This document shows, piece by piece, positions 1-11,956 of a stretch of DNA of 11,956 bases. This stretch comes from Bacteroidales bacterium (lineage in GTDB: Bacteria > Bacteroidota > Bacteroidia > Bacteroidales > VadinHA17). The DNA lies in the NCBI GenBank assembly GCA_025455505.1, contig JALOMK010000127.1, forward strand, positions 1 through 11,956, written 5' to 3'. Both the position numbers and the translations under genes were made by a program. Positions within the stretch are counted from its first letter, which is position 1. Each line of letters begins with the position of its first letter. The notes below the pieces were generated by a model, which saw only the letters and a program-made list of their open reading frames with translations, was not told the origin of the DNA and made no database searches.

Positions 1-500
1 AGCTGATCGCGCGGCAGAAAGTGCTCGGCAAAGCGATTACCTCTGTTACCCTCGGCCTTGCACCCGACAGTTCAGCCAGGGCCGCAATTGCCGGAAGTGC
101 CGGTGAACTGATTTCGATGAAGTCTTCACTGCAGGGATTGAAGGATGATGATTTTCTCAGGATGAGGGAGAGCATCACCGGGAAAAGCAGGATGCTTGCT
201 GACAGGCTGGCTCAGTTCACAGGAATTGAAAGCGGCACAATTGAATCATCAATACTTGTAAGTACTCTTTTGCCTGACTTTTCAGGATCTGTTACCGGGG
301 AGGAGTTCGTGGGCCTGGATGCAATGATGAAACTTTATCTCACCCATAACCAGTCGGTTTTAACCGACACCAGGTTCCTTGGATTTCCCTTTCATTACTT
401 CTACACTGCATTTTTCCTGCTGGTGCTGTTCGTCTTCCTTTGCATTTTGTACAATCTGCGCATGGAGATGCATCTGAAAAAGGAAGGAATTGTTGAATGA
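1..500 (+). CDS. Sodium:solute symporter small subunit, DUF4212-like, enlarged (5' partial)
   Basis: The frame is open to the left edge (codons from base 3) and stops at TGA 498-500, so 165 residues are visible and the true start lies outside the window. The GTG at 21 is internal and is probably not the start. The last ~42 residues (LGFPFHYFYT, a hydrophobic membrane helix, then NLRMEMHLKKEGIVE) look like the second half of DUF4212 small subunits (TIGR03647 type): a short GFP motif, a TM helix and a charged tail. Those proteins are normally about 80-100 aa with two TM helices. Here some 120 mostly helical, soluble-looking residues precede the final TM, so there is probably a large extracytoplasmic insert between TM1 (outside the window) and TM2. 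The symporter large subunit starts 3 nt downstream, the standard family pairing. The family call rests mainly on the C-terminus and on context; the insert has no function I recognise. Confidence 0.7.
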   Translation, partial: LIARQKVLGKAITSVTLGLAPDSSARAAIAGSAGELISMKSSLQGLKDDDFLRMRESITGKSRMLADRLAQFTGIESGTIESSILVSTLLPDFSGSVTGEEFVGLDAMMKLYLTHNQSVLTDTRFLGFPFHYFYTAFFLLVLFVFLCILYNLRMEMHLKKEGIVE

Positions 501-503
501 TTT

Positions 504-2195
504 ATGCTTATGAATATGAAAAAGACACTTATATTTTTAGTTCTTTCCCTGCTTGCATTTTTGCCCCTCAATGCTCAGAACCTGACTCAGCTTGAAGGCA
601 GTTTTAAGGCCGGACCGGCGATTATTCTGATTGCCACGCTTGTAACCTTCGTTCTTGTAGGTATCTTCTTCAGGGCCAAGGATCCGGCGGACTATTACGC
701 AGCAGGCCGGAAAATCTCGAGAGTCGGATCGGGTATGGCAATTGCTTCAAACTGGATGAGCGCGGCATCTGTTCTTGGGATGGCCGGCATGATGTATGGT
801 TTTGGCTACAATGGTCTTGCCTATGTTGTTGGCTGGACGGGCGGATACGTGCTGCTGCTTATACTGATGGCCGCACAGATAAGGAAATATGGCAAATACA
901 CCGCACCCGATTTTATTGGCGACCGCTATTATTCGCGCGACCTGAGAATTTTGAGCGCAATCTTCACAATACTCATATCATTTGCATATTGTGTCGGACA
1001 GTTTGGAGGCATAGGGCTGATGTTCAAATGGATCCTCGGCCTTAATTACACCTGGGCCGTAATAATCGGTTCGTCTGTGGTCCTGGTCTACACACTGATT
1101 TCAGGCATGATAGGAGCCACCAAGAACATGCAGATCCAGTATGTAATTATTGTTGTCTCATTCATTATCCCGGTGTTCATAATGGCCTTCAAGTTCGATT
1201 ATTTCTGGCTTGTCCCACAGTTAGGATACGGCGCAGCGGTTACTGATGTGATCCAGGGGATACAGGCGCCGAATATCTCAGGAGGTGCGGCTCTGCTGAA
1301 TGCATACGGGCAGGATCTTGCAATAGTTCCGAGTCCTGAGTATGCAATGCCCTGGGATCCGTCGACCGGCACAACCTTCTTCCAGTGGATGGCAATATGC
1401 TTCTCACTCATGGTAGGAACGGCAGGATTGCCCCATGTAATTCAGCGCTTCTATGTGGTACCCAAGGTATCTGATGCAAGGTGGTCAGTTGTCTGGGGTT
1501 TGTTCTTTATCTGCCTTGTTTACTGGACGGCACCTGCTTATTCAACCTTCGGAAAGCTTTTGTCCTCGCATCCCGACGTGGGTTCGCTTGCAAAGGACGC
1601 GATTGTCGTTTACACCGCCCAGTTAGGGGGTGTTAACTCGCTTGTTGTGGGCCTTCTGGCCGCAGGGGCAATATCGGCTGCATTTTCAACTGTGTCAGGA
1701 CTGCTTGTTGCAGGAGCTTCGGCTTTTTCGCACGACCTCTATGTCAAGGTCATCAATCCCTCCTCTACACCCCAGGTGCAGCTGAGGATTGCCAGGATAG
1801 GAACAATAATAATGGCTGTGGCCGTGACTGTAGTGGCCCTGCTAAAGCTCGGGCTCATAGCGCAGCTTGTTTCGGTAGCCTTCTCGATGGCTGCCTGCAC
1901 AATTTTTCCCCTGTTCCTGCTGGGTATATGGTGGAGCGGCTCCAACAGGTCAGGGGCCAAGGCAGGCCTGCTTACCGGCATCATAGTCACGGCCATATCG
2001 ATAACATACTTCCTTGTAGGTCTTGCGGGTGGCAGGCTGCCGGGGCAGGAGTTCGTGTCGTACTGGCTTAACGTATGGTATTTTGCCTGGATCGGAGCCC
2101 CGCTTGCAATTATAGCAAACATTGTTGTTTCAAAATTCACCGAGCCAACTCCGCAGGAAATCAAGAAATTCCTTGCAGAGCAGGTGCATAACTGA
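504..2195 (+). CDS. Sodium:solute symporter, VC_2705/ActP-like (SSS family)
   Basis: This 563-residue polytopic inner-membrane protein belongs to the solute:sodium symporter family (TC 2.A.21), which couples Na+ influx to uptake of a small organic solute. Family marks include DYYAAGR (63-69), ASNWMSAASVLG (81-92), the KYTAPDFIGDRY region (131-142) and GTAGLPHVIQRF (305-316), all typical of the acetate permease ActP/VC_2705 branch. A large non-membrane loop (about 232-290) is present, as in this branch. The N-terminus looks like a cleavable signal peptide ending LNAQ (residue 25), a feature also found in ActP. ATG 504 gives the longest frame; ATG 516 (MKKTLIF) makes a more canonical signal peptide and is equally plausible. 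The purine-rich AAAAAGGAAGG at 477-487 is rather distant. The gene follows its small subunit by 3 nt and shares one base with the next gene (TGATG). The substrate is not determinable from sequence; acetate or another short carboxylate is inferred from the ActP relationship. Confidence 0.92.
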   Translation: MLMNMKKTLIFLVLSLLAFLPLNAQNLTQLEGSFKAGPAIILIATLVTFVLVGIFFRAKDPADYYAAGRKISRVGSGMAIASNWMSAASVLGMAGMMYGFGYNGLAYVVGWTGGYVLLLILMAAQIRKYGKYTAPDFIGDRYYSRDLRILSAIFTILISFAYCVGQFGGIGLMFKWILGLNYTWAVIIGSSVVLVYTLISGMIGATKNMQIQYVIIVVSFIIPVFIMAFKFDYFWLVPQLGYGAAVTDVIQGIQAPNISGGAALLNAYGQDLAIVPSPEYAMPWDPSTGTTFFQWMAICFSLMVGTAGLPHVIQRFYVVPKVSDARWSVVWGLFFICLVYWTAPAYSTFGKLLSSHPDVGSLAKDAIVVYTAQLGGVNSLVVGLLAAGAISAAFSTVSGLLVAGASAFSHDLYVKVINPSSTPQVQLRIARIGTIIMAVAVTVVALLKLGLIAQLVSVAFSMAACTIFPLFLLGIWWSGSNRSGAKAGLLTGIIVTAISITYFLVGLAGGRLPGQEFVSYWLNVWYFAWIGAPLAIIANIVVSKFTEPTPQEIKKFLAEQVHN

Positions 2196-2974
2196 TGAAA
2201 ATCAGCGATTTAGTAGTGGTTACACGTGGAACCAGGGTTGTATTTCTTATAACCCTGGTTGTTTCGCTGCTTGCAGTGCTTGCGGCAGCGATTTATTACA
2301 GACAGCTCAACAGGGCTGAGGATCCGCGTATCCTTGAAGCCCGCCGGATACTGAACGAAAGCAGTGAACTGCGTGCTGACGAGCCTGTTACAGCTGTCTT
2401 TGCCCGTCTCGACAGCGCAGCTGCAATCTTCAGGAGTCTGCCGGACTACTGTGACTCATTTGAGCCTGGGATAATCCAGAACAACAAATGCTCGATGCTT
2501 CTCCTCTCAGCAATCTATGATACAACTTTATCGGAAAGCGGCAGGGAGATTATGTTGAATATGGCCATGCAATATTGCGACAGCAGCATAAGTGTTTACG
2601 AAAGATGGATAATGGCCTGGGGCGGACAGGATGAGGTTCAGCTCAGGGCCGCCATTGAGCCTTACATGAAAAAAGACGATCCTGCATTTTCAGGACTCAA
2701 CTACGACAGGATTCTGGGAAGAAGGGTAAAGTCGCTTGCAGCTGCACAGATTGAAACTAAAAGAAGGCTTTCGGTGAGTTTTACAAACAAGGCGGCAATT
2801 TACAGGCACCTTGGGGATGTCGATTCCTCGCTTATATTTCTGAACAGGGCGCTGGAGCTCTGGGCCGGCAACAGGACCGCGAAAAGCAATCTGAGCGTTT
2901 TGATGGGTGGCAAACCTGAAAAACCTTCGCTCGTGGAATCCCTTTTCCCGCCGGAGCGGCTGAAAAAGGAATGA
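2195..2974 (+). CDS. Membrane-anchored TPR-like protein of unknown function
   Basis: This 259-residue protein has one TM helix near the N-terminus (about 14-34), preceded by a short basic cytoplasmic segment, so most of the chain should be periplasmic. Residues about 40-135 look helical. The segment at about 192-229 (TNKAAIYRHLGDVDSSLIFL then NRALELW) has the A/G/A spacing of a tetratricopeptide repeat. No enzymatic motif is visible. The start ATG shares its A with the symporter's TGA stop (TGATG), so translational coupling is likely. The gene sits between the inner-membrane symporter and the outer-membrane porin, so a periplasmic scaffold or accessory role in the same uptake system is possible, but that is inference from position only. 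A perfect 10-bp inverted repeat lies within codons 12-22. I do not recognise the family. Confidence 0.75.
   Translation: MKISDLVVVTRGTRVVFLITLVVSLLAVLAAAIYYRQLNRAEDPRILEARRILNESSELRADEPVTAVFARLDSAAAIFRSLPDYCDSFEPGIIQNNKCSMLLLSAIYDTTLSESGREIMLNMAMQYCDSSISVYERWIMAWGGQDEVQLRAAIEPYMKKDDPAFSGLNYDRILGRRVKSLAAAQIETKRRLSVSFTNKAAIYRHLGDVDSSLIFLNRALELWAGNRTAKSNLSVLMGGKPEKPSLVESLFPPERLKKE
2230..2260. repeat. Perfect 10-bp inverted repeat (stem-loop) just inside the gene after the symporter
   Basis: Arms AACCAGGGTT (2230-2239) and AACCCTGGTT (2251-2260) are exact reverse complements with an 11-nt A/T-rich loop (2240-2250). The RNA stem starts 35 nt after the symporter stop. No U-tract follows, so it is not a standard intrinsic terminator. 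It could be an RNA processing or stabilising hairpin that sets different levels of the symporter and downstream messages, or a chance result of the coding sequence. Confidence 0.55.
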
Positions 2975-3029
2975 ATAATAACTAATATTGCCTTTGGAAC
3001 AGACAGGCATTAATAACAAGATCGATATC

Positions 3030-4268
3030 ATGAAGAAAAGCATTTTCCTTCTCCTGCTCACAGGGGCGGGATTTTTAAGCCTGCACTCGCAGACACCTGA
3101 CCCTTCATGGGGAATAAAGTTTTCGGGTTTCGTCAAGAATGACATCTTTTACGACACCCGGCAGTCGGGAGCATCGAACGGCATCAGGGAGGGCCATTTC
3201 TATCTTTATCCTGACAATGTTCTTAACGACAGTGAGGGAAATGACCTGAATGCCAATCCCTCGTTTCACATGCTGAGCATACAGACCCGCCTGAAAGGTG
3301 ACATAAGCGGGCCGGATGCCTTCGGTGCAAAGACATCGGGTGTGATTGAAGCAGAGTTCTTCGGCACTTCCGAATCGGATATCAATGGATTCAGGCTCAG
3401 GCATGCCTATGTGAAACTTGACTGGGCGAAGAGTTCGCTTCTTGCCGGCCAGTACTGGCACCCCCTTTTCCCCACTGAATCATTCCCGGGGACAGTCAGC
3501 TTCAACACGGGAGCGCCTTTTACTCCTTTCAGCAGGAATCCACAGGTAAGGTTCACGGCCGTTTTTGGTAAAGTTTCGGCAATTGCGACTGCTTATGCGC
3601 AGCGTGATTTTGTATCTTCCGGTCCCGACGGAGGCAGCAACAAATATATGAGGAACAGCGGATTGCCGGGGTTTAACGGGCAGGTCAGGGTGGCAGCGGG
3701 TGAAAAGGTAACCGCCTGGGCGGGTTTCGATTATAAGAACCTGAGGCCTGAACTGCGCACATCGCTTAATGTTGAAACAAATGAAAGGATAGGAAGCATT
3801 GCTGCCTTTGCGAATGTTAAGTTTAAAACCACGCCGTTTACATTATCAGTTATGGGAATATGGGCTCAGAATGCCAGCGACCTTGTTATGATAGGCGGAT
3901 ATGCGGTTACAGGGACAGCCGATCCCGTCAGCGGGGCACGTGAGTACACAAATTACAGCACTCTCAACGGCTGGGCCGATATTTCGACAAACGCAAAGAA
4001 AGTGAATGCGGGTTTATTTGCAGGTTACAGCAGGAACCTGGGTGCCTCTGACGATGTCACAGGTTCATTTTACGGTCGCGGCAATAACATAAGTCATATT
4101 TTCAGGATTTCGCCCAGGGTTACAGTTACAGAGGGGCGCTTTACAGTGTCGGCCGAAATTGAAAGCACGACTGCTGCTTACGGTACCGCCGGTAGCGACG
4201 GCCTTGTTACCAATGCGGAAGGAGTATCGAACCTGAGAATACTCCTGGCTACGATCTTCAGGTTTTAG
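3030..4268 (+). CDS. DcaP-like outer-membrane porin
   Basis: From ATG 3030 this is a 412-residue protein with a signal peptide (residues 1-21: MKKS, a Leu-rich core, ending LHSQ). A longer frame from TTG 2988 would bury the signal peptide, so 3030 is preferred. The mature chain alternates short amphipathic strands, starts with a FSGFVKNDIFYDTR strand and ends ILLATIFRF with a terminal Phe, as in outer-membrane beta-barrels. A stretch with IEAEFFG, RLRHAY (122-127), LLAGQYW (137-143) and NPQVRF (170-175) resembles DcaP-family porins, which carry dicarboxylates and other anionic solutes in Acinetobacter. It lies 55 nt downstream of the TPR-like gene, last in the transport operon. It would supply the outer-membrane step for the symporter's substrate. 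The barrel call is firm; DcaP membership is from recalled motif pattern. Its TAG stop overlaps the stop codon of the convergent gene. Confidence 0.82.
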   Translation: MKKSIFLLLLTGAGFLSLHSQTPDPSWGIKFSGFVKNDIFYDTRQSGASNGIREGHFYLYPDNVLNDSEGNDLNANPSFHMLSIQTRLKGDISGPDAFGAKTSGVIEAEFFGTSESDINGFRLRHAYVKLDWAKSSLLAGQYWHPLFPTESFPGTVSFNTGAPFTPFSRNPQVRFTAVFGKVSAIATAYAQRDFVSSGPDGGSNKYMRNSGLPGFNGQVRVAAGEKVTAWAGFDYKNLRPELRTSLNVETNERIGSIAAFANVKFKTTPFTLSVMGIWAQNASDLVMIGGYAVTGTADPVSGAREYTNYSTLNGWADISTNAKKVNAGLFAGYSRNLGASDDVTGSFYGRGNNISHIFRISPRVTVTEGRFTVSAEIESTTAAYGTAGSDGLVTNAEGVSNLRILLATIFRF

Positions 4269-6406
4269 ATTTCTGAAGTATAGAAATCAGCATCAGCCTG
4301 CAGCATCAGATCCCTGACGGCTGACAGCGCCTGTTCAGCAAGGGGGAAGAGTTCCGGGTGCCCGCTTGCAAAATCAATCAGGTTGTCAGCGGTTTCTCCC
4401 CTGGCAATGCACTCAGCCTGGTGACGGAGGCGGAGCATAGTAAGATCACGGGCAGCTTTCAGCGAGCTTCTGAGAAGTTTCAGGGGCAGGGTGCCTGCCG
4501 AATGAAGGTCAGCAATCCTGTCGCCTGTGGCTGTTGAGGCAACTGAGTTTTTCAGCGCATAAAGCCTTACAAGGCCGGTAAGGGGCATCATTATCTTCTT
4601 GATGTCGGTCTTTCTGTCAGGTGACAGGTGAACAGCCCTGAGATACTCCTTCCAGCCCAAAGCCATGTGGTGAAAAAAAATGTCGGTAGCCACGAGGTCC
4701 CTGCCTATGAAATCTTTAAGTTCAGCAGTTAAGCTGCTGTCACCATAGCAGTGCCTGATATCGAAGAAGATGCTTATGTCGAGCAGTTCCGCAGGGCCGG
4801 GGGCCTTTATCCATCCCGAAAAATATGCTTTCCAGTCATCGAGGGGGCGGCACCACTTAGGATTGCTAGCCATATTGCCTCCCTTGCATGACGCATAACC
4901 GGCTTCTTCAAGCATCCTGTTTATCCGCACGGCAAGTTCAGTGAAATAAGCAACTGAAGTCTCAATATCATCCGCGCCGGCATTGCTTATAATAATACCG
5001 TTATCCTGGTCGGTGCAGAGTGTCTGTTCCATCCTTCCGGCGCTTCCTGTCTGGATAAAGGCGAAGCTGCAGGGAGGCCGGGACGATTCGGAGAGGCATA
5101 TTTCTATTACTCTTTTGCAGATGGAGTCGGCAATGCGCGATACGAAACCGCTGACGGCAACCGGATCGGCCCCGTCAAGGATCATTGATGCTGAAAGCAT
5201 CCTGCAGCCCTTAAAAACAGCAGACAATTCAGTTGCAGTGACTGCCTTTGCAATTTCGTTTTCAAACAGCCCGGGTGCAATGCGGAAAAATCCTTTTTCG
5301 GATCGATCAGCCGATGACAGCTGAATAATTGTTGAGCCGGCTTCCTTCGGAACCGGCACCGGAGTGAGTACGGCAATTACAGCTTTTCTTCCGCCTATCT
5401 CAATCCGCGAGAAGTCGGCATGAGCATTTATAAGCGACCCTGTTTTCGTCATGATCTGAGCACCGGTATACCTTGCAGAATCCAGGTTGTCGTAGAGGCT
5501 GTCAGAGTTTTCGGGGAAAACGAAATCGAGCTTTTCAAGCACAAGCGACGGGTGAAGGTCACGCAGTTCGTCCCCTGTGAGGTCAAGCCACGAAAGCAGC
5601 ACTTTATTTGCCTGAAGTCCGGCGGATGACCAGATGAGCACACCCTCCCTTGATGCTTCGGCAAGGGCTTTGTATAATTCGCGCGACCGGTGGAGCTCAG
5701 TCTCGGCGACTGCCCTTTTATTTTCAATCTGATGACTCTGGATTGAGATTACTGTGAGCAGGGCAATAATCACGACGGCAATTATTGCCGATATTATCAA
5801 GGCCCTGAACTCTATGCGCCGTATTTCGGTCTTTACATCGTCGATGTAAATGCCTGTTCCGATTACCCAGCCCCACGGTTCGAAGAGCCTCACATACGAC
5901 AGTTTGGGCACAGTGCGGGTTGAATCATCGTTCCATTGCCACATATAGCTTACGTAACCTTCGCCGCCATTACCTGCAGACCTTACAAAATCAACGAAGA
6001 CCCTTTTCCCTGATGCATCCTCGAAGTCAGTAAGGTCCTTTCCATTCAGTTCGGGCCTGTAGGGATGGACTATCATTACTGGATGAAGGTCAGTGATCCA
6101 GAAATAGTCCTTCATGGATTCTCCATACCTTATCCGCCCGATGGCTGCCGAGGCCTCCTGCCTGGCTTCCTCACTGCCCAGTTCTGAAGCGAGTTCCCGG
6201 GAATGGTAGTAAACCAGCATTGAGTAGGCTGTTGATGTGACTTCCTTTATCATCTCTCTTTTCCGGTCCATTATTGCCTTTTCAAAACCGGGTATGAGGT
6301 ATATGAAGATGAGTCCTGCGAATAACATAAAGGCTATCACTGCCGGGATGTCAATTCTCAGTATGAAGTTCTTTCCGTATTTTATTCCTCTTTTCATTTC
6401 CGGCAT
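4265..6406 (-). CDS. sCache-PAS-DUF294 membrane sensor nucleotidyltransferase
   Basis: I chose ATG 6406 (MPEMKRG), which follows the upstream gene's stop by one base and gives 713 aa. The frame runs up to 6457 (730 aa), and ATG 6397 is also possible. Numbering from 6457: TM1 is 35-57 and an extracytoplasmic Cache domain (sCache_2 type) is 60-215, with YFWITD (118-123), HPYRPELNGKDL (131-142), YVSYMWQW (168-175), KLSYVRLFEPWGWVIGTGIY (185-204) and DD (206-207). TM2 is 219-239, followed by a short linker helix and a PAS-like domain (about 260-370). The DUF294 nucleotidyltransferase domain (about 393-535) carries GSAGRMEQ (471-478) and TDQDN (482-486), the GlnD-like metal/nucleotide-binding motif, plus GGNMASNPKWC (526-536). 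DUF294_C is about 560-715, with DIKKIMMPLTGLVRLYAL (618-635). The likely action is transfer of a nucleotide to a partner in response to an extracellular ligand; the target is unknown. DUF294 proteins often accompany VC_2705-type symporters, as here. The domain calls are strong; the activity is inferred. Confidence 0.88.
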   Translation of the reverse strand: MPEMKRGIKYGKNFILRIDIPAVIAFMLFAGLIFIYLIPGFEKAIMDRKREMIKEVTSTAYSMLVYYHSRELASELGSEEARQEASAAIGRIRYGESMKDYFWITDLHPVMIVHPYRPELNGKDLTDFEDASGKRVFVDFVRSAGNGGEGYVSYMWQWNDDSTRTVPKLSYVRLFEPWGWVIGTGIYIDDVKTEIRRIEFRALIISAIIAVVIIALLTVISIQSHQIENKRAVAETELHRSRELYKALAEASREGVLIWSSAGLQANKVLLSWLDLTGDELRDLHPSLVLEKLDFVFPENSDSLYDNLDSARYTGAQIMTKTGSLINAHADFSRIEIGGRKAVIAVLTPVPVPKEAGSTIIQLSSADRSEKGFFRIAPGLFENEIAKAVTATELSAVFKGCRMLSASMILDGADPVAVSGFVSRIADSICKRVIEICLSESSRPPCSFAFIQTGSAGRMEQTLCTDQDNGIIISNAGADDIETSVAYFTELAVRINRMLEEAGYASCKGGNMASNPKWCRPLDDWKAYFSGWIKAPGPAELLDISIFFDIRHCYGDSSLTAELKDFIGRDLVATDIFFHHMALGWKEYLRAVHLSPDRKTDIKKIMMPLTGLVRLYALKNSVASTATGDRIADLHSAGTLPLKLLRSSLKAARDLTMLRLRHQAECIARGETADNLIDFASGHPELFPLAEQALSAVRDLMLQADADFYTSEI

Positions 6407-6407
6407 T

Positions 6408-7047
6408 TCATGATATCCTGAGGGGTATGACACTGAGCTGGAGGCTGCCTGTGTCAAATACCGAAAAACATGCCCTCCCCTCGTCGCCTGTAAGGGCAGG
6501 CAATACAGAAAGCATCATGCCGGTGCCAAGGGTGTAGCTGTCGTGCGGGAGCGAGTGCACCGCCTTCATAAAAGGGAGAATGAGGGAGCTGTTATGCCTG
6601 TATGCGAAGCCTGTAAAGGCAGCATGGGAGTGGCCCGTGAATGCATATACTGACCCGATTTCGTCCATGAATTTCCAGAGGTCCCGGAGCTGGGAATTCT
6701 TCTCTACATAACGGGTAGTCGATCCTGTGCAGTCGGGGAAAATGTAATGCGAAAACAGGCAGTCGGCTCCTTCGGCAGAAACGTTTATATATTCAGGGAG
6801 GTTGTTTAAAAATTCGAGCCGCGGCAAGATCGTGGTTTCCTGCAACTATCCACCTGCAGTTCGCCCTGATAAGAGAAAGGCAGGCGCTGGCGCTCCGCTT
6901 TAGTTCATGCCTGTAAAAACGCCTGTCGAAGCCTGCAATGTCGCCAAGGCATGCAATTTCATGACAGGCCCAGGCATCTGCAGCCCTGAGGGCCTCCTGG
7001 AGCATTCCTGCGTTCTCATGAATATCGGTTATGATTCCAATTTTCAC
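6408..7047 (-). pseudogene. Calcineurin-like metallophosphoesterase, split by a one-base frameshift
   Basis: Two overlapping frames together make one protein of about 212 aa of the YfcE/MJ0936-like metallophosphoesterase type (Metallophos_2). The first frame, from GTG 7047 (VKIGIITDIHEN, the normal N-terminus for the family), carries D8/H10, LGDIAGFD (34-41) and AGNHD (69-73). It then runs out at a stop at 6793-6795. The second frame, picked up at about 6807, carries FSHYIFPD, GHSH and a family-like C-terminal beta segment, ending at TGA 6408-6410. The break is at the A5 tract 6808-6812 (T5 on the coding strand): removing one T gives AARILNNLPEYI and joins the frames exactly. All metal-ligand motifs are intact, so the lesion is recent, a sequencing or assembly error, or a genuine recoding site. 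A TTG at 7104 would give a longer start but adds a non-family extension. The gene is immediately upstream of, and probably cotranscribed with, the Cache-DUF294 gene. Confidence 0.8.
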
Positions 7048-7189
7048 GGTATATAGTCGCTGATCGGGTTTGTGCCAAGCATGTCTGTTTATAAAGGTAA
7101 TCAAATTTTAATAAAGAGACAGGGCCAGGGTGCTGAGCATTCCTTTGTTACAAGAGCGCCGCAAAAAAATTGTTTTTCCCTTGAATAGT

Positions 7190-7220
7190 TTTGTTCAGAT
7201 TTGCAAATTGTTTAATTTTG
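7190..7220 (+). promoter_or_regulatory. Bacteroidota-type promoter of the marR-efflux operon
   Basis: TTTG at 7190-7193 and TAATTTTG at 7213-7220 match the Bacteroidota -33 (TTTG) and -7 (TAnnTTTG) elements exactly, with a 19-nt spacer. Transcription would start near 7225-7227, giving a leader of about 16-18 nt before ATG 7243. There is no Shine-Dalgarno sequence, as is common in this phylum. On the opposite strand, the spacer upstream of the metallophosphoesterase has only a one-mismatch -7 candidate (AAAATTTG, 7110-7103), too weak to list separately. Confidence 0.7.
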
Positions 7221-7238
7221 TTTAGCTGCTAAACAAAA
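7216..7238. promoter_or_regulatory. 23-bp perfect palindrome, probable MarR operator
   Basis: Arms TTTTGTTTAGC (7216-7226) and GCTAAACAAAA (7228-7238) are exact reverse complements around a single T at 7227. The site overlaps the last five bases of the -7 element, covers the predicted start of transcription and ends 4 nt before the marR ATG. MarR dimers bind palindromes of about this length, usually next to their own gene, so autorepression of the marR-adaptor-RND operon is the natural reading. It might also act on the divergent metallophosphoesterase unit. Confidence 0.75.
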
Positions 7239-7242
7239 AGCC

Positions 7243-7704
7243 ATGAACCAGGAACTGCAGGATCTTGTAGACCAGTTTCACAAGATACTTTACCTCTACT
7301 CTGTAATCGGGAGAAAGCCAAAGGATTACGGAACGGGTGATCTGCTGTATTTCTCAGAAATACACACAATTGCGATGATAGACAGGAACAGGGAGATCAA
7401 CATAACCCGCCTCGCAGATGTAATGGGTGTGACTAAGGGAGCAATATCGCAGACAATTTCAAAGCTGGTCGCAAAGAAGCTGATTATAAGGAAGAACATC
7501 AGGAATTTAAAGGAAGTCAACCTGATGCTGTCAGCGAAAGGCCGGAAGGTGCTAAAAGCCCAGGAAGCATTTCAGAATGAGATATTTACATTTGCCGCCT
7601 CGTTGTATGAAAAGGCAGGCAGCACCGACAGGGAGCTTGTAGGCAGGTTATTCAGGGCGATTACCGCAAACATGGAAGAGAGGGTAAGGGGAGCGCAAGC
7701 CTGA
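7243..7704 (+). CDS. MarR-family transcriptional regulator
   Basis: This 153-residue protein has the usual MarR length and layout. An N-terminal dimerisation helix (about 3-20) is followed by a winged helix-turn-helix at about 36-96. Within it, INITRLADVMGVTKGAISQT (52-71) contains the HTH and recognition helix, SKLVAKKLI completes it, and the basic wing IIRKNIRNLKEVNL (81-94) follows. Helical dimerisation segments fill the C-terminus (100-150). It presumably represses its own operon through the palindrome directly upstream and releases on binding a toxic ligand or inducer, as in other MarR-efflux loci. It is first in the operon, 28 nt before the adaptor gene. The ATG at 7243 is the only start compatible with the predicted promoter. 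The inducer is unknown. Confidence 0.9.
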   Translation: MNQELQDLVDQFHKILYLYSVIGRKPKDYGTGDLLYFSEIHTIAMIDRNREINITRLADVMGVTKGAISQTISKLVAKKLIIRKNIRNLKEVNLMLSAKGRKVLKAQEAFQNEIFTFAASLYEKAGSTDRELVGRLFRAITANMEERVRGAQA

Positions 7705-7732
7705 ATGCGAAGCCTGCCAAAACGATGATAAG

Positions 7733-8794
7733 ATGAGCAAAATTCAATACGGCATGAAAATGAGATACCTTGCATTATTAATTCTGTCATTTTCAATACT
7801 TGCTTTCTCCTGCAGAAGGGGAGAAGTCAGGGAGAATGCACCGGAAGGGCTCATTCCCGTTAAGACAGCGCCTGTTGCCCAGGCTAAGACAGGTATCCCG
7901 GTCCGGGCGGCCGGGATCCTGGCAACTTCCGACGAGGTAAAGCTGTCATTCAAGACCGGAGGCATAATCAGTGCAATACATGTTGAAGAAGGCAGGCGGG
8001 TGCAGAAGGGACAAGTCCTTGCATCGCTTGACCTGACTGAAATTAATGCAAATGCAGGTATAGCTCGTGAAGGACTTGAGAAGGCTGAAAGAGATTATGA
8101 AAGGGCTGAAAGCCTTTACAGGGACAGTGTGGGAACTCTCGAAAGGAAACAAAACGCATTCACTGCCCTGAGTGCTGCAAGGCTGAATTATGAGATCGCC
8201 CTGTATAACCGCTCACGTTCTGTCATTACAGCCCCTGAGAACGGGATTATACTTCGCAGGCTCGTCGGGCCAGGTGAGATGGTTGCTCCCGGCTACCCGG
8301 TTTTCCTTTTCGGTGTCACCGGGAAGTTGTGGAAGGTAAAGGCAGGCCTGTCTGAGAGGGATATTGTAAAAATCAGCAGGGGCGATTCGGTTAGTGTGTC
8401 CTTCGATGCATGGCCCGGCATTAGGTTCCCCGGGGAGATTGACATTACAGGTGAGATTGCAAATCCCCTTACAGGGACATTCGGCGTTGAGATACTGCTT
8501 GAGGGTACTGCTTACAGGCTTGCCTCTGGCTTCATTGCAACTATCGAAATATTCCCTTCCGGAGGGAGTACTTATTCACTTATCCCCGTTGAGTCGCTTG
8601 TTGAGTCTGATGGCAATACGGGTTTTGTATTTTACTTAAACGGCAGCGGAGAAACAATGAAAGCAAAAGTTGAAATAATTGCCCTTGCAGGCGCCAGTGC
8701 TGCAGTAAGCGGACTCCCTGCCGGAGTGAGGGAGGTGATCTCCACAGGAGCACCCTACATCAGGGAAGGCATGAAAGTTAAGGTTGTGAAATGA
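7733..8794 (+). CDS. RND efflux periplasmic adaptor (membrane-fusion protein), lipoprotein
   Basis: This 353-residue HlyD/AcrA-type adaptor bridges the RND pump and an outer-membrane channel. The N-terminus is a lipoprotein-type signal (MRYLALLILSF then SILAFSC), with Cys27 as the probable lipidated residue if the start is 7733. ATG 7754 (MKMRYLAL) is an equally good or better start. The order after that is a first barrel-sandwich half (about 68-100, with KTGGIISAIHVEEGRRVQKG), a short alpha-hairpin (about 101-152, rich in Glu/Arg/Ala), a second half (SVITAPENGIILRRLVGPGE, 163-182), and beta-barrel and membrane-proximal domains to the end. The hairpin is short for the family. The stop codon overlaps the pump's start (ATGA), so the two are translationally coupled. 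Confidence 0.9.
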   Translation: MSKIQYGMKMRYLALLILSFSILAFSCRRGEVRENAPEGLIPVKTAPVAQAKTGIPVRAAGILATSDEVKLSFKTGGIISAIHVEEGRRVQKGQVLASLDLTEINANAGIAREGLEKAERDYERAESLYRDSVGTLERKQNAFTALSAARLNYEIALYNRSRSVITAPENGIILRRLVGPGEMVAPGYPVFLFGVTGKLWKVKAGLSERDIVKISRGDSVSVSFDAWPGIRFPGEIDITGEIANPLTGTFGVEILLEGTAYRLASGFIATIEIFPSGGSTYSLIPVESLVESDGNTGFVFYLNGSGETMKAKVEIIALAGASAAVSGLPAGVREVISTGAPYIREGMKVKVVK

Positions 8795-11700
8795 AAATAT
8801 CGGAATCAGCAGTCAGGAACTACCAGTTCACAATAGTGGCCTTCCTGCTCCTTGTGGCCCTGGGAATATATTCCATGCTTAACATTCCACAGGCCGAGGA
8901 CCCCGAATTCCCGATTTCGATCTTCCCGGTGATAGCAATTTACCCGGGTGCCTCTCCTGCCGATATTGAGCAGCTTGTCGTAGACAGGATTGAGGAGAGC
9001 ATGAATGAGCTCGAGGACATTCTCAGGATCAAGTCTGAAATAAAGGATGGCGTTGCTGTAATTGTAGTTGAGTTCAGCCCTGAAACCGATCCCGATAAAA
9101 AGTATGATGAAATCCTCAGGCAGATAAATACAATAAGTGACGAGTTGCCGTCAGACCTTTACAGCGTTGAGGTTTTAAAAATACAGGCCGGCAACACGAA
9201 TATTGTCCAGAGCGCGCTTGTATCGGACACTGCTGGTTACATGGAACTGGGGCGTTATGCAGAGCGCCTGCGCGACCAGCTGGCGGCAGTGGAAGGAGTC
9301 AGGAAAGCTGAAGCTGTAGCATATCCGGTTAGGGAGATTGAAGTTGCCGTCGACCTGGCCAGGATGGCCGAGCTCAACCTGTCGTTGACCCGCATTATAA
9401 GCGCAATACAGAGTGAGAATGCAAACATTCCCGGCGGAAGCATAGAGGCAGGTCCCCGGAAATTCAACGTGAAGACGAGCGGATCCTATTCAAGCCTCGA
9501 AGAAGTGCAGAGGACGATAGTGGCTTCCGACAAAGGTCATATTGTGATGCTTCGCGATGTAGCAGATGTAAGCTGGACCGACGGAGAGCCTGTTTATACC
9601 GGGCGCTTCAATGGCCGAAGGGCGGTATTCCTTATTGCAAGCATGAAGAAGGGCCAGAATATTCATGAGGTCAGGGACAGGATTTACAGGGTTTATGACA
9701 GGTTTGGTGAAACACTGCCGCCGGCAGTAGCTATTGAAAGAGGATTCGACCAGTCGGAAAATGTGAAGAACAAGCTTGGACGGCTCCGGAACGATTTTCT
9801 TTTTGCTTTTCTGCTTGTGCTGATCACCCTTATGCCCCTGGGGCTCAGGGCATCGGCAATTGTGATGGTTTCAATTCCGCTGTCACTTCTTATAGGAGTC
9901 ACAGGTCTGTACCTGTCGGGGCTGAGCATTAACCAGCTTAGCATAGTTGGAGCAGTGATATCGCTCGGTCTTCTTGTAGATGATTCAATAGTTGTTGTCG
10001 AGAACATTTCTCGCTGGGTGAGGGCCGGAAAGACTCCACGCGAGGCGGCAATAGGCGCTACCCGGCAGATTGGCACAGCCGTGGCAGGATGCACCGCCAC
10101 CCTGATACTTGCCTTTCTTCCGCTGATGTTCCTTCCGGGCATGGCCGGCAAGTACATGCGGTCGTTACCTGCTTCGGTCACATTCATTGTAATTGGATCT
10201 TTGCTGGTTGCTCTCACTCTTATTCCCTTCATAGCCAGCAATGTCTTCAGGTCGGGTGTCGATCCTGAGGGCAACCGGGTTCTGAAGGCGCTTAACAGGG
10301 GGATAGACTTCACTTACGGGAGGGCCCTGGGCTGGTCGCTCCGCAATCCTCTGAAGACTGTTGCCGCGGCATCACTGCTTTTCTTCTCCTCACTTTTCCT
10401 TATTAACCTGATCGGATTCAGCCTTTTTCCGAAAGCAGGGCTGCCGCAGTTCCTGATCACTGTTGAGACACCAAGGGGAAGCAATATCGGAGAGACCGAC
10501 AGGGTTGTGCGTTACGTTGAATCAATCCTGGAGCAGAGGCCTGAGATCAGGTATTACATGTCAAATATCGGTAAGGGCAATCCCCAGGTCTTCTATAATG
10601 TCTTTCAGAAGAGTGAACAGTCGACACTGGGGGAAATACTATGTGAAATCCGATCAGATGCACAGCCCCTGATATCCGGGGTTATCGAAGAGCTTCGCGA
10701 CACGCTTGAGACTTACCCTGGAGCGAGGATCTATGTTTACGAGTTTGAGAACGGAATGCCCGTCGATGCCCCGATAGCCCTGAGGCTTGTAGGGGAAGAC
10801 CTTGACACGATAAGGACATACTCCGAGAAGATAGAACATATTCTCCGTTCGAATCCCGCCTGCACTTATATCAAGAATCCTCTCAGCCAGTCGCTTACTG
10901 ACATCAGGATAAATGTAAACAGACAGAAGGCAGGCATCCTCGGAGTGCCGGCTGTTGAAATCGACCGCACGGTCCGCATTGCACTGGCCGGAATGGAAGC
11001 CGGTAAATTCCGGGACAATGACGGGAGGGACTATCCGATAATTGTAGGGCTGCCTCCGGAACAGGGCAAAAGCATTGAGGCCCTGAACAGCATTTATGTT
11101 TCTTCGCTCTCAGGTGCCCAGGTGCCTCTTTCACAGCTTGCAACAACTGAATTTGAGAACTCGGCCACCCTTATTCAGCATTACAATTCCGGGAGGTCGA
11201 TGACAGTGTCGGCATCGGTGAAAAGCGGCTACAACACTGATCGGGTAACAAAGGAAATACTCGACGAAACTGACAAGCTCAGGCTGCCACCGGGCTACAG
11301 GATAATTCCGGCCGGAGAGATTGAAAGCAGGAAGCAGAGTTTCAGCGGCATAGGAACTGCGATCCTCATTGCAATTTTCGGCATCTTTGCAGTCCTTATA
11401 CTCGAATTCCGGACCTTCAGGAGCACCCTTATTGTAATCTCAGTGATCCCGCTCGGCATTATCGGAGGCCTGCTTATGCTTTACCTTACCGGCTACACCC
11501 TTTCCTTTGCCGCTGCAATTGGATTTGTTGCCCTCATAGGCATCGAGATCAAGAACTCAATTCTACTCGTTGATTTTACAAACCAGATGAGGCAGCAGGG
11601 TACCCCGCTTGATGAAGCAATACTCAGGGCCGGGGAAATACGTTTCCTACCTGTCCTGCTGACAACGCTGACAGCAATCGGCGGCCTGATGCCAATAGCC

Positions 11701-11835
11701 CTCGGTCATTCAAACCTTTACAGTCCGCTCGCATGGGTCATAATCGGAGGGCTTGTAACATCAACACTCTTCGCAAGGCTTGTAACACCTGTAATGTATA
11801 AGCTTCTTCCCCCTTCCGTCGAAGTGCCGGATTAA
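8791..11835 (+). CDS. RND-family efflux pump, inner-membrane transporter (AcrB/HAE1-like)
   Basis: This 1014-residue proton-driven exporter has the full RND duplication: TM1 at 11-31, a first periplasmic loop to about 330, TM2-6, TM7 near 520-540, a second periplasmic loop, then TM8-12 at about 850-1005. The proton relay is intact: Asp397-Asp398 in LGLLVDDSIVVVENI (TM4) and Lys921 in GIEIKNSILLVDF (TM10), equivalent to AcrB D407/D408/K940. The early GASPADIEQLVVDRIEESMN segment is the family's porter-domain start. It is slightly shorter than AcrB (1049 aa), as in many Bacteroidota pumps. It is coupled to the adaptor by an ATGA overlap. Hydrophobic toxic compounds are the usual substrates; heavy-metal CusA-type marks are not evident. 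Actual specificity cannot be read from the sequence. No TolC-like gene follows in the ~120 bases remaining. Confidence 0.95.
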   Translation: MKISESAVRNYQFTIVAFLLLVALGIYSMLNIPQAEDPEFPISIFPVIAIYPGASPADIEQLVVDRIEESMNELEDILRIKSEIKDGVAVIVVEFSPETDPDKKYDEILRQINTISDELPSDLYSVEVLKIQAGNTNIVQSALVSDTAGYMELGRYAERLRDQLAAVEGVRKAEAVAYPVREIEVAVDLARMAELNLSLTRIISAIQSENANIPGGSIEAGPRKFNVKTSGSYSSLEEVQRTIVASDKGHIVMLRDVADVSWTDGEPVYTGRFNGRRAVFLIASMKKGQNIHEVRDRIYRVYDRFGETLPPAVAIERGFDQSENVKNKLGRLRNDFLFAFLLVLITLMPLGLRASAIVMVSIPLSLLIGVTGLYLSGLSINQLSIVGAVISLGLLVDDSIVVVENISRWVRAGKTPREAAIGATRQIGTAVAGCTATLILAFLPLMFLPGMAGKYMRSLPASVTFIVIGSLLVALTLIPFIASNVFRSGVDPEGNRVLKALNRGIDFTYGRALGWSLRNPLKTVAAASLLFFSSLFLINLIGFSLFPKAGLPQFLITVETPRGSNIGETDRVVRYVESILEQRPEIRYYMSNIGKGNPQVFYNVFQKSEQSTLGEILCEIRSDAQPLISGVIEELRDTLETYPGARIYVYEFENGMPVDAPIALRLVGEDLDTIRTYSEKIEHILRSNPACTYIKNPLSQSLTDIRINVNRQKAGILGVPAVEIDRTVRIALAGMEAGKFRDNDGRDYPIIVGLPPEQGKSIEALNSIYVSSLSGAQVPLSQLATTEFENSATLIQHYNSGRSMTVSASVKSGYNTDRVTKEILDETDKLRLPPGYRIIPAGEIESRKQSFSGIGTAILIAIFGIFAVLILEFRTFRSTLIVISVIPLGIIGGLLMLYLTGYTLSFAAAIGFVALIGIEIKNSILLVDFTNQMRQQGTPLDEAILRAGEIRFLPVLLTTLTAIGGLMPIALGHSNLYSPLAWVIIGGLVTSTLFARLVTPVMYKLLPPSVEVPD

Positions 11836-11870
11836 AAATCCTTCCCGCTTGACTCGTATTTAAAAAAGTC

Positions 11871-11886
11871 CTAACTTGTTGGTTAG
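11871..11886. repeat. Short inverted repeat downstream of the RND gene
   Basis: CTAAC (11871-11875) and GTTAG (11882-11886) pair around a 6-nt spacer. A five-base stem without a following T-tract is too weak for a terminator. It could be a regulator half-site pair for the gene that may start at 11920. The rest of 11836-11919 shows nothing I can name. Confidence 0.25.
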
Positions 11887-11919
11887 AAACCTGACAATTA
11901 ATACTAATCTTCTGAAAAA

Positions 11920-11956
11920 ATGAGAATCCACATTACTGGATTTGTAATCTGGGTAA
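11920..11956 (+). CDS. Possible start of another CDS (3' partial)
   Basis: ATG 11920 opens a frame with no stop to the window edge, reading MRIHITGFVIWV. A basic residue followed by a hydrophobic run fits the start of a signal peptide or TM helix. The purine-rich GAAAAAA just before it could aid initiation. Only 12 codons are visible, so the product cannot be named and chance openness is quite possible. Confidence 0.35.
   Translation, partial: MRIHITGFVIWV

Follow-up and report, generated by a model that had tools for sequence, protein, structure and literature searches.

Bacterial membrane receptors mostly signal by phosphotransfer, through chemotaxis arrays or by way of cyclic (di)nucleotides. 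What a receptor might achieve with an output of another kind is the question raised by a contig of 11,956 nucleotides from a Bacteroidales bacterium of the VadinHA17 lineage (GenBank assembly GCA_025455505.1, contig JALOMK010000127.1, positions 1 to 11,956), the whole of which is referred to here as the window. Its reverse strand encodes a transmembrane (TM) protein in which an sCache_2 sensor domain and a PAS domain precede a DUF294 nucleotidyltransferase (NTase) and the DUF294_C domain. An initial annotation of the locus had described an extracellular sensor fused to a transferase resembling that of GlnD; the observation is confirmed here, and the interpretation placed on it is partly supported.

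In this study, we examine the ligand pocket, the output module and the gene neighborhood of this protein and its homologues. The explanation that we favor, tentatively and a little short of calling it probable, is that the protein is a membrane-spanning receptor that detects short monocarboxylates and answers through a GlnD-like nucleotidyltransferase.

Domain order of the sensor gene

Pfam models match the 730-residue open reading frame (ORF) well above their cut-offs for sCache_2 (residues 63-215, E 3.8e-38, 131.3 bits against 25), DUF294 (PF03445, residues 421-555, E 7.2e-41, 139.7 bits against 21) and DUF294_C (PF10335, residues 598-697, E 5e-16, 59.2 bits against 22.5), and hydropathy peaks mark a TM helix on either side of the Cache domain. 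No Pfam PAS model appears among the matches of the window protein at E<=10; a profile built from homologues, with the window protein among its 120 rows, gives 126 bits for family PAS1, and the homologues themselves match PAS_8, PAS_9 or PAS. The architecture as first drawn stands, as does the view that the output is neither of the His-Asp nor of the GGDEF type. The cNMP-binding domain (PF00027) and the HD phosphohydrolase and ACT domains are absent from the Pfam matches of the window protein at E<=10, and neither Pfam nor our own profiles find a CBS pair before its NTase. The gene had been placed at 4265..6457, where the ORF does lie; its first TTG (6457), however, falls within the upstream ORF, and the likely start is the ATG at 6397, which gives the database form, or that at 6406. 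The features, all on the reverse strand, are as follows.

4265..6397, reverse: sensor coding sequence, TM-sCache_2-TM-PAS-DUF294-DUF294_C; 710 residues from ATG 6397, 713 from ATG 6406
6293..6349, reverse: transmembrane helix 1, hydropathy peak, residues 37-55 of the 730-residue ORF
5813..6271, reverse: sCache_2 domain (Pfam), with seven predicted contact residues for a C2/C3 carboxylate
5747..5803, reverse: transmembrane helix 2, hydropathy peak, residues 219-237 of the 730-residue ORF
5363..5680 (end approximate), reverse: PAS domain, family PAS1, by homologue profile, starting at residue 260 of the 730-residue ORF
5278..5279, reverse: junction at which relatives carry about 241 extra residues (PAS2 and a CBS pair), by homologue comparison
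4793..5197, reverse: DUF294 nucleotidyltransferase domain (Pfam)
5003-5047, reverse: GSAGR...DQD signature, within DUF294
4760-4762, reverse: third acid, D546, just beyond the Pfam DUF294 match
4367..4666, reverse: DUF294_C domain (Pfam), of the Pfam clan shared with the GlnD C-domain

The predicted carboxylate pocket of the Cache domain

The closest PDB matches of the Cache part are Adeh_3718 (4k08) and PscD (5g4y); T-complex structures that also matched (E 0.056 or worse) were judged to be chance. In PscD, Y90, H103, Y143 and K156 hold the propionate, which is sandwiched by W92 and W145 with F126 opposite it (PMC5062169). All seven of these residues (Y90, W92, H103, F126, Y143, W145 and K156) align with identical ones in the window protein (Y98, W100, H111, F134, Y151, W153 and K165 in the 710-residue numbering). 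The seven are identical in 120/120 window homologues, in 119/119 relatives of the protein at locus L098 and in 81/83 locus sequences, the two exceptions having F in place of W100. The Cache patterns by which loci were picked contain Y98, W100, Y151 and W153, so that in the picked loci only the H, F and K are free tests of the pocket; the two homologue sets are less biased. In Adeh_3718, whose crystals were grown in acetate, an equivalent residue set binds acetate in the site (PMC3831638). The NCBIfam models for MctS and CtpM reach 96.3 of 700 and 73.8 of 900 bits on the window protein, below their thresholds and over the Cache-TM part only; MctS is a Cache histidine kinase that controls a permease for pyruvate, lactate and alanine (PMC9100948). 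Because the pocket is complete, an SSS symporter is a neighbor, some loci hold an acetate--CoA ligase and the MctS model matches, a signal of the acetate class is a well supported prediction for the Cache domain.

The output module

GlnD is the bifunctional PII uridylyltransferase/uridylyl-removing enzyme (UTase/UR), in which a phosphohydrolase reverses the action of the transferase. The GSAGR...DQD signature and DUF294_C had been called intact in the window protein, and they are; the third acid, D546, is present as well, and these sites are identical in 120/120 of the best homologues. The catalytic positions G451, S452, R455, D463, D465 and D546 are kept in 120/120 window homologues, 119/120 L098 relatives and 86/86 locus sequences, which makes 325 of 326 sequences in a set where the window appears under two entries, P0001 and WIN; only P0233 deviates, through a gap at D546. 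E. coli GlnD itself scores 26.3 bits on PF03445 (cut-off 21, E 7.4e-6), and hhalign aligns DUF294 plus DUF294_C, from eight sequences, colinearly with the UTase and C-domain of GlnD over 215 columns (E 0.0048, with a probability of only 7%). DUF294_C has also been grouped with the C-domains of GlnD and GlnE (PMC3710099). By sequence comparison, then, the output module is GlnD-like, and its intact residues support the prediction that the NTase transfers a nucleotide. A sequence search of the PDB gave no DUF294 relative (best E 0.19, unrelated), and the 60 of 148 PDB matches listed comprise CBS and cNMP proteins only, with no DUF294.

Size of the family and loss of the CBS pair

The initial annotation took the architecture to be unusual. 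That idea of rarity is ruled out by 1543 homologues at E<=1e-10 among 7999 candidates scored, and by 287 encoding stretches in genome contigs, 80 loci of which were kept: the Cache-DUF294 architecture is common, not an oddity, and little studied. Nor does a Cache input replace the CBS input in the close family, as had been supposed. Among the best 120 of the 1543 homologues, the window's own protein included, our profiles, cut from their alignment, find Cache, PAS1, NTase and C-domain in 120/120, PAS2 in 119/120 and a CBS pair in 118/120 (precomputed PF00571 on 116/120), so that 118 carry both inputs. A typical relative has about 953 residues in the order Cache-PAS-PAS-CBS-CBS-NTase-C.

What the initial annotation overlooked is that a block of about 241 residues, PAS2 plus the CBS pair, is absent here. 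The missing block would follow residue 373 and measures 241 residues in 99/119 of the other proteins (range 136 to 244). On a tree of 88 proteins the window protein falls within the Bacteroidales long forms, as sister to P0002 and P0003 (support 98/93), so the loss is local. The CBS state changes at least five times on that tree; a recount confirmed the five changes after L035, L056 and L059, first labelled CBS-bearing by a spacing rule, were found to have no CBS match or a sub-threshold one in Pfam. Further members lacking the pair are L029 and L033 (by Pfam), L037 and L041 (by our profiles), P0029, L035 and one clade marked by an N-terminal extension. Between Cache and NTase there are 205 residues in the window protein and 202-231 in most CBS-less members, with outliers at L061 (183), L067 (239), L059 (286), L056 (289) and L035 (341, which keeps PAS2).

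Some genomes carry several such genes. Two Desulfobacter genomes (L063 and L065) have three Cache-DUF294 genes each within the stretch examined, near a regulator gene that by eye looks to be of the sigma-54 type, and L063 has in addition a CBS-DUF294 gene that lacks Cache. Cache-DUF294 genes occur in cultured species too, namely Pontiella sulfatireligans, where an SSS gene is adjacent, and Desulfobacter latus.

State of the window copy

One further feature lies directly upstream of the sensor gene.

6408..7104, reverse: calcineurin-like metallophosphoesterase gene, broken

Profile positions 2-79 of this gene fall in ORF 6793-7104 and positions 125-254 in ORF 6408-6845; about 45 positions are gone, with a frame change near 6811-6818. 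The locus shows internal deletions in both the sensor and the phosphoesterase, at a distance of about 1.5 kb from each other. The early expectation that the protein should be active has only its intact residues behind it, against these deletions and the broken partner gene. The metallophosphoesterase copy at L090 is likewise split into two ORFs. With the CBS pair gone and the phosphoesterase broken, the window copy may be a stripped-down or decaying one, or may be locally misassembled.

That the copy is simply decaying or misassembled, its CBS deletion having no biological meaning, is a serious possibility, if a somewhat doubtful one, and is compatible with our explanation for the family. Besides the two deletions, it would account for a long terminal branch (0.51, where the sister proteins have 0.13 and 0.21) and for departures at 5 of 158 near-invariant columns where the other homologues average 1.25 (two reach 8); the source, moreover, is a metagenome-assembled genome of 69% completeness in 377 contigs. 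Yet 153/158 of those columns are kept, including every catalytic and pocket residue, the reading frame of the sensor is open throughout, other CBS-less lineages retain the catalytic residues, and a search of the incomplete genome for a PAS2/CBS piece elsewhere matched only the two flanking parts.

Phosphodiesterase partners of DUF294 genes

The favored explanation, a carboxylate receptor with a transferase output, gains a second component from the gene neighborhood. The neighbor-rank sample holds 81 loci, 78 with Cache; L020, L021 and L101, which carry DUF294 without Cache, were dropped from the 78-locus tally, and L045, L047, L057 and L071, where the sensor gene is cut or split, were omitted from the neighbor count. 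Metallophosphoesterases of four separate families, one representative of each confirmed by Pfam, occupy 37/158 positions at rank 1, 3/139 at rank 2, 3/128 at rank 3 and 0/528 at rank 4 or beyond, a count that enters both pieces of the broken gene, in the window as in L090, separately and informs on distance only, because the profiles were built from recurrent neighbors. Members of the main family, F3, are immediate upstream neighbors in the same orientation, with an overlap or a gap of at most 20 bases in 23/26 cases. Within three genes of the 78 Cache-type loci we find a metallophosphoesterase in 40, a DUF6915-like extension in 21 (plus L063, which has an exonuclease too), a PHP domain in 3 and none of these in 13. 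Four of the last group (L074, L084, L088 and L096) have an AP_endonuc_2 TIM-barrel gene (F27) one or two ORFs from Cache-DUF294.

The extension is an N-terminal domain of about 135 residues with conserved His/Asp and a weak DUF6915 match, below the cut-off in L049 (25.1 against 27). It occurs in 22 Cache-DUF294 loci (L039, L042, L043, L046, L048-L050, L052-L056, L058-L060, L062-L067 and L069), none of which (0/22) has a metallophosphoesterase or PHP gene within three genes, and an exonuclease is found in L063 only. The 20 extension members on the tree form one clade, so this exclusion counts as one event, and the domain is an unproven candidate hydrolase. The PHP domain is fused N-terminally to Cache-PAS-(CBS)-DUF294 in 118/120 of the best L098 relatives by our own profile (precomputed PF02811 on 115/120), with Aminicenantes, Acidobacteria, Sumerlaeaceae, Armatimonadota and unclassified organisms as named hosts; fusions were recorded at L061:2730-5507 (Spirochaetaceae) and L098:9197-12532 and in P0121-P0240. 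At L033:351-2186 (reverse strand) a PHP-TM-Cache-TM-PAS protein without NTase lies three ORFs from an opposite-strand Cache-PAS-DUF294 gene, and is a possible ligand-controlled eraser.

A second sample was assembled with DUF294 as the sole search criterion. Matches occur in 97/296 Bacteroidota genomes, some of them weak only and perhaps GlnD or GlnE. From the strong matches 40 loci were hand-picked, non-randomly, to spread over families before their neighbors were seen; 38 were scored, L157 and L173 being dropped for want of a DUF294 ORF above 40 bits. With three annotated plasmid proteins as seeds for exonucleases, a phosphodiesterase is adjacent in 25/38 loci, on the same strand in 24/25, compared with 0/150 at ranks 2-3 and 1/179 at rank 4 or beyond. 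Beside 21/33 genes without Cache (loci within L138-L177) it is a DEDDh exonuclease; the 4 metallophosphoesterases, of family F3, all stand beside the 5 Cache-type genes. The lineages of this sample are not independent, the five Cache loci belonging to three families. Pfam confirmed the PF00929 exonuclease in the three members tested and cNMP-CBS-DUF294 in one. Five plasmid loci were also inspected: the Limimaricola plasmid has the order acs-adk-DUF4212-SSS-DUF294-x-exonuclease, that of Tateyamaria repeats it from adk onward, in Hymenobacter the exonuclease gene overlaps DUF294, in Paracoccus it lies four genes away past two signalling genes, and the Halomonas locus is unannotated.

DUF294 genes often have a phosphodiesterase next to them, and its fold varies with the subfamily. 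Because a constant transferase, an exchangeable phosphodiesterase and a context-dependent sensor resemble GlnD, the arrangement suggests, by analogy with its UTase/UR, a writer/eraser pair with exchangeable erasers; gene order and fusion likewise suggest that the partner phosphodiesterase may reverse the mark.

The same partners could serve a second messenger, if the NTase made a carboxylate-triggered di- or oligonucleotide that the partner phosphodiesterase hydrolyzed. This is unlikely, but has substance: the partners look like enzymes that cut nucleotides or short RNA, such as DEDDh exonucleases, the PHP domain matches 3',5'-nucleoside bisphosphate phosphatase and RNase RNM best among NCBIfam models (both under cut-off), and one metallophosphoesterase has a sub-threshold match to the YfcE phosphodiesterase. 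However, GlnD, the nearest characterized module found, modifies a protein, and no constant messenger receptor was seen in the clusters, even though a CRP-type regulator family occurs in 16/85 loci. Improbable, in turn, is RNA tailing, in which the NTase would extend an RNA 3' end for the exonuclease to trim. CCA-adding or MenA-type enzymes do add nucleotides to RNA 3' ends, and the pairing with a 3'-5' exonuclease in those 21/33 Cache-less loci would fit; but colinearity with GlnD extends through the C-domain, and we know of no metallophosphoesterase of the Cache-associated type that trims RNA 3' ends. The idea that the NTase domain is a nucleotide sensor and not a transferase would agree with the lack of reported activity in the literature searched, but is highly improbable given the retention of the six catalytic positions in 325/326 sequences.

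Other neighbors and the acetate context

Beyond the phosphoesterase, the sensor gene of the proposed receptor shares its cluster with four forward-strand genes, among them the SSS symporter that had been reported beside it.

3..500, forward: DUF4212-type small symporter subunit with an N-terminal extension, open at the window start; 31 bits against a cut-off of 30, TIGR03647 just under cut-off
504..2195, forward: SSS symporter, VC_2705 family (over cut-off), with ActP and MctC models matching under their cut-offs
2195..2974, forward: protein with weak TPR matches (under cut-off), kept in the Bacteroidales cluster
2988..4268, forward: protein matching no Pfam family, by eye resembling a porin, kept in the cluster and convergent with the sensor gene

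An SSS gene lies at most four genes away in 37/46 loci with full flanks, an acetate--CoA ligase family is present in 4/85 loci (one member named), and acs occurs in one plasmid locus of the soluble type. A DUF4212-type subunit with a long N-terminal extension also occurs at L030:16698-17468 (reverse strand), in Bacteroidales. At 7243-11835 on the forward strand of the window stand a MarR-type regulator (Pfam) and then two genes that by eye resemble the membrane fusion protein (MFP) and RND components of efflux systems; no link between them and the sensor cluster was seen.

Discussion

In the mechanism that we propose, a periplasmic acid of the acetate class would bind the Cache domain, and the signal would pass through TM helix 2 and the PAS domain to the NTase, which would reversibly attach a nucleotide to a cytoplasmic target. 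The most likely target would be a protein of acetate uptake or activation, such as the symporter or its small subunit, or else an enzyme that forms acetyl-CoA. The neighboring phosphoesterase would remove the nucleotide, much as the UR (HD) activity of GlnD undoes the work of the UTase, and the CBS pair of most close relatives would provide a second input, probably a nucleotide. A broader proposal, plausible but to be held with reserve, is that Cache-DUF294 proteins are one-component transmembrane receptors tuned to the acetate class with reversible nucleotidylation as their output, and that the DUF294 superfamily consists of writer/eraser modules in which the writer is constant and the eraser is swapped among unrelated folds: a metallophosphoesterase, a DEDDh exonuclease, a fused PHP domain and possibly a new hydrolase in the form of the DUF6915-like N-terminal domain.

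Several observations weigh against these proposals. The acetate in Adeh_3718 may derive from the crystallization buffer. No activity for any DUF294 protein appeared in the literature searched, which included few subscription papers. For the DEDDh, PHP and metallophosphoesterase partners, nucleotides or RNA could just as well be the substrates, and a partner is not universal: 13/78 Cache-type loci have no recognized phosphoesterase, in another 22 the unproven DUF6915-like extension is the sole candidate, save for one that has an exonuclease as well, and 13/38 loci of the second sample have no adjacent phosphodiesterase. Nor is the symporter, since 9/46 full-flank loci have no nearby SSS gene and only 9/38 second-sample loci have one within three genes. 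In the window itself, the phosphoesterase is broken and the sensor exceeds the average number of departures from near-invariant columns. Finally, deletion of pflu5625 had a negligible effect on growth on acetate (PMC5715377).

Pflu5625 of P. fluorescens exemplifies the soluble cNMP-CBS-DUF294 proteins (COG2905). It belongs to the CrbS/R acetate regulon, and the study credits the prediction of nucleotidylation to Aravind and Koonin 1999 (PMC5715377). Proteins of this type share with the window protein DUF294, DUF294_C and the link to acetate uptake, and with the Cache type a phosphodiesterase neighbor in many loci; they differ in having cNMP and CBS inputs and no TM or Cache part (L139, L104), and their partner is a DEDDh exonuclease, not a metallophosphoesterase. 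GlnD has the NTase motif, third acid and C-domain in common with the window protein, as well as the order in which these elements occur, and with the Cache-DUF294 family it would share the coupling of a writer to an eraser; it differs in holding its own HD eraser and two ACT domains in one soluble chain. PscD, Adeh_3718 and MctS have a Cache domain of the same sCache_2 type, the first two with the full carboxylate pocket, yet their output is that of a methyl-accepting chemotaxis protein or a histidine kinase, not a nucleotidyltransferase. The PHP-Cache-PAS-(CBS)-DUF294 fusions (e.g. P0121, Aminicenantes) join an identical type of Cache/NTase core to a phosphoesterase domain within a single polypeptide; unlike the window protein, they have the candidate eraser fused, mostly keep the CBS pair and occur in other phyla. 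In the literature searched, we found neither a description of Cache-DUF294 proteins or their phosphodiesterase partners nor characterized proteins of this architecture with a known output; the main text of one Cache census contains no terms that start with DUF294 or nucleotidyl (PMC4822843).

If the proposal is true, a carboxylate receptor driving a GlnD-like transferase would be an additional output for membrane receptors, and a function would be offered for the DUF294 proteins, a number of which have a link to the use of acetate. The phosphodiesterase partner provides a concrete route to the modified target.

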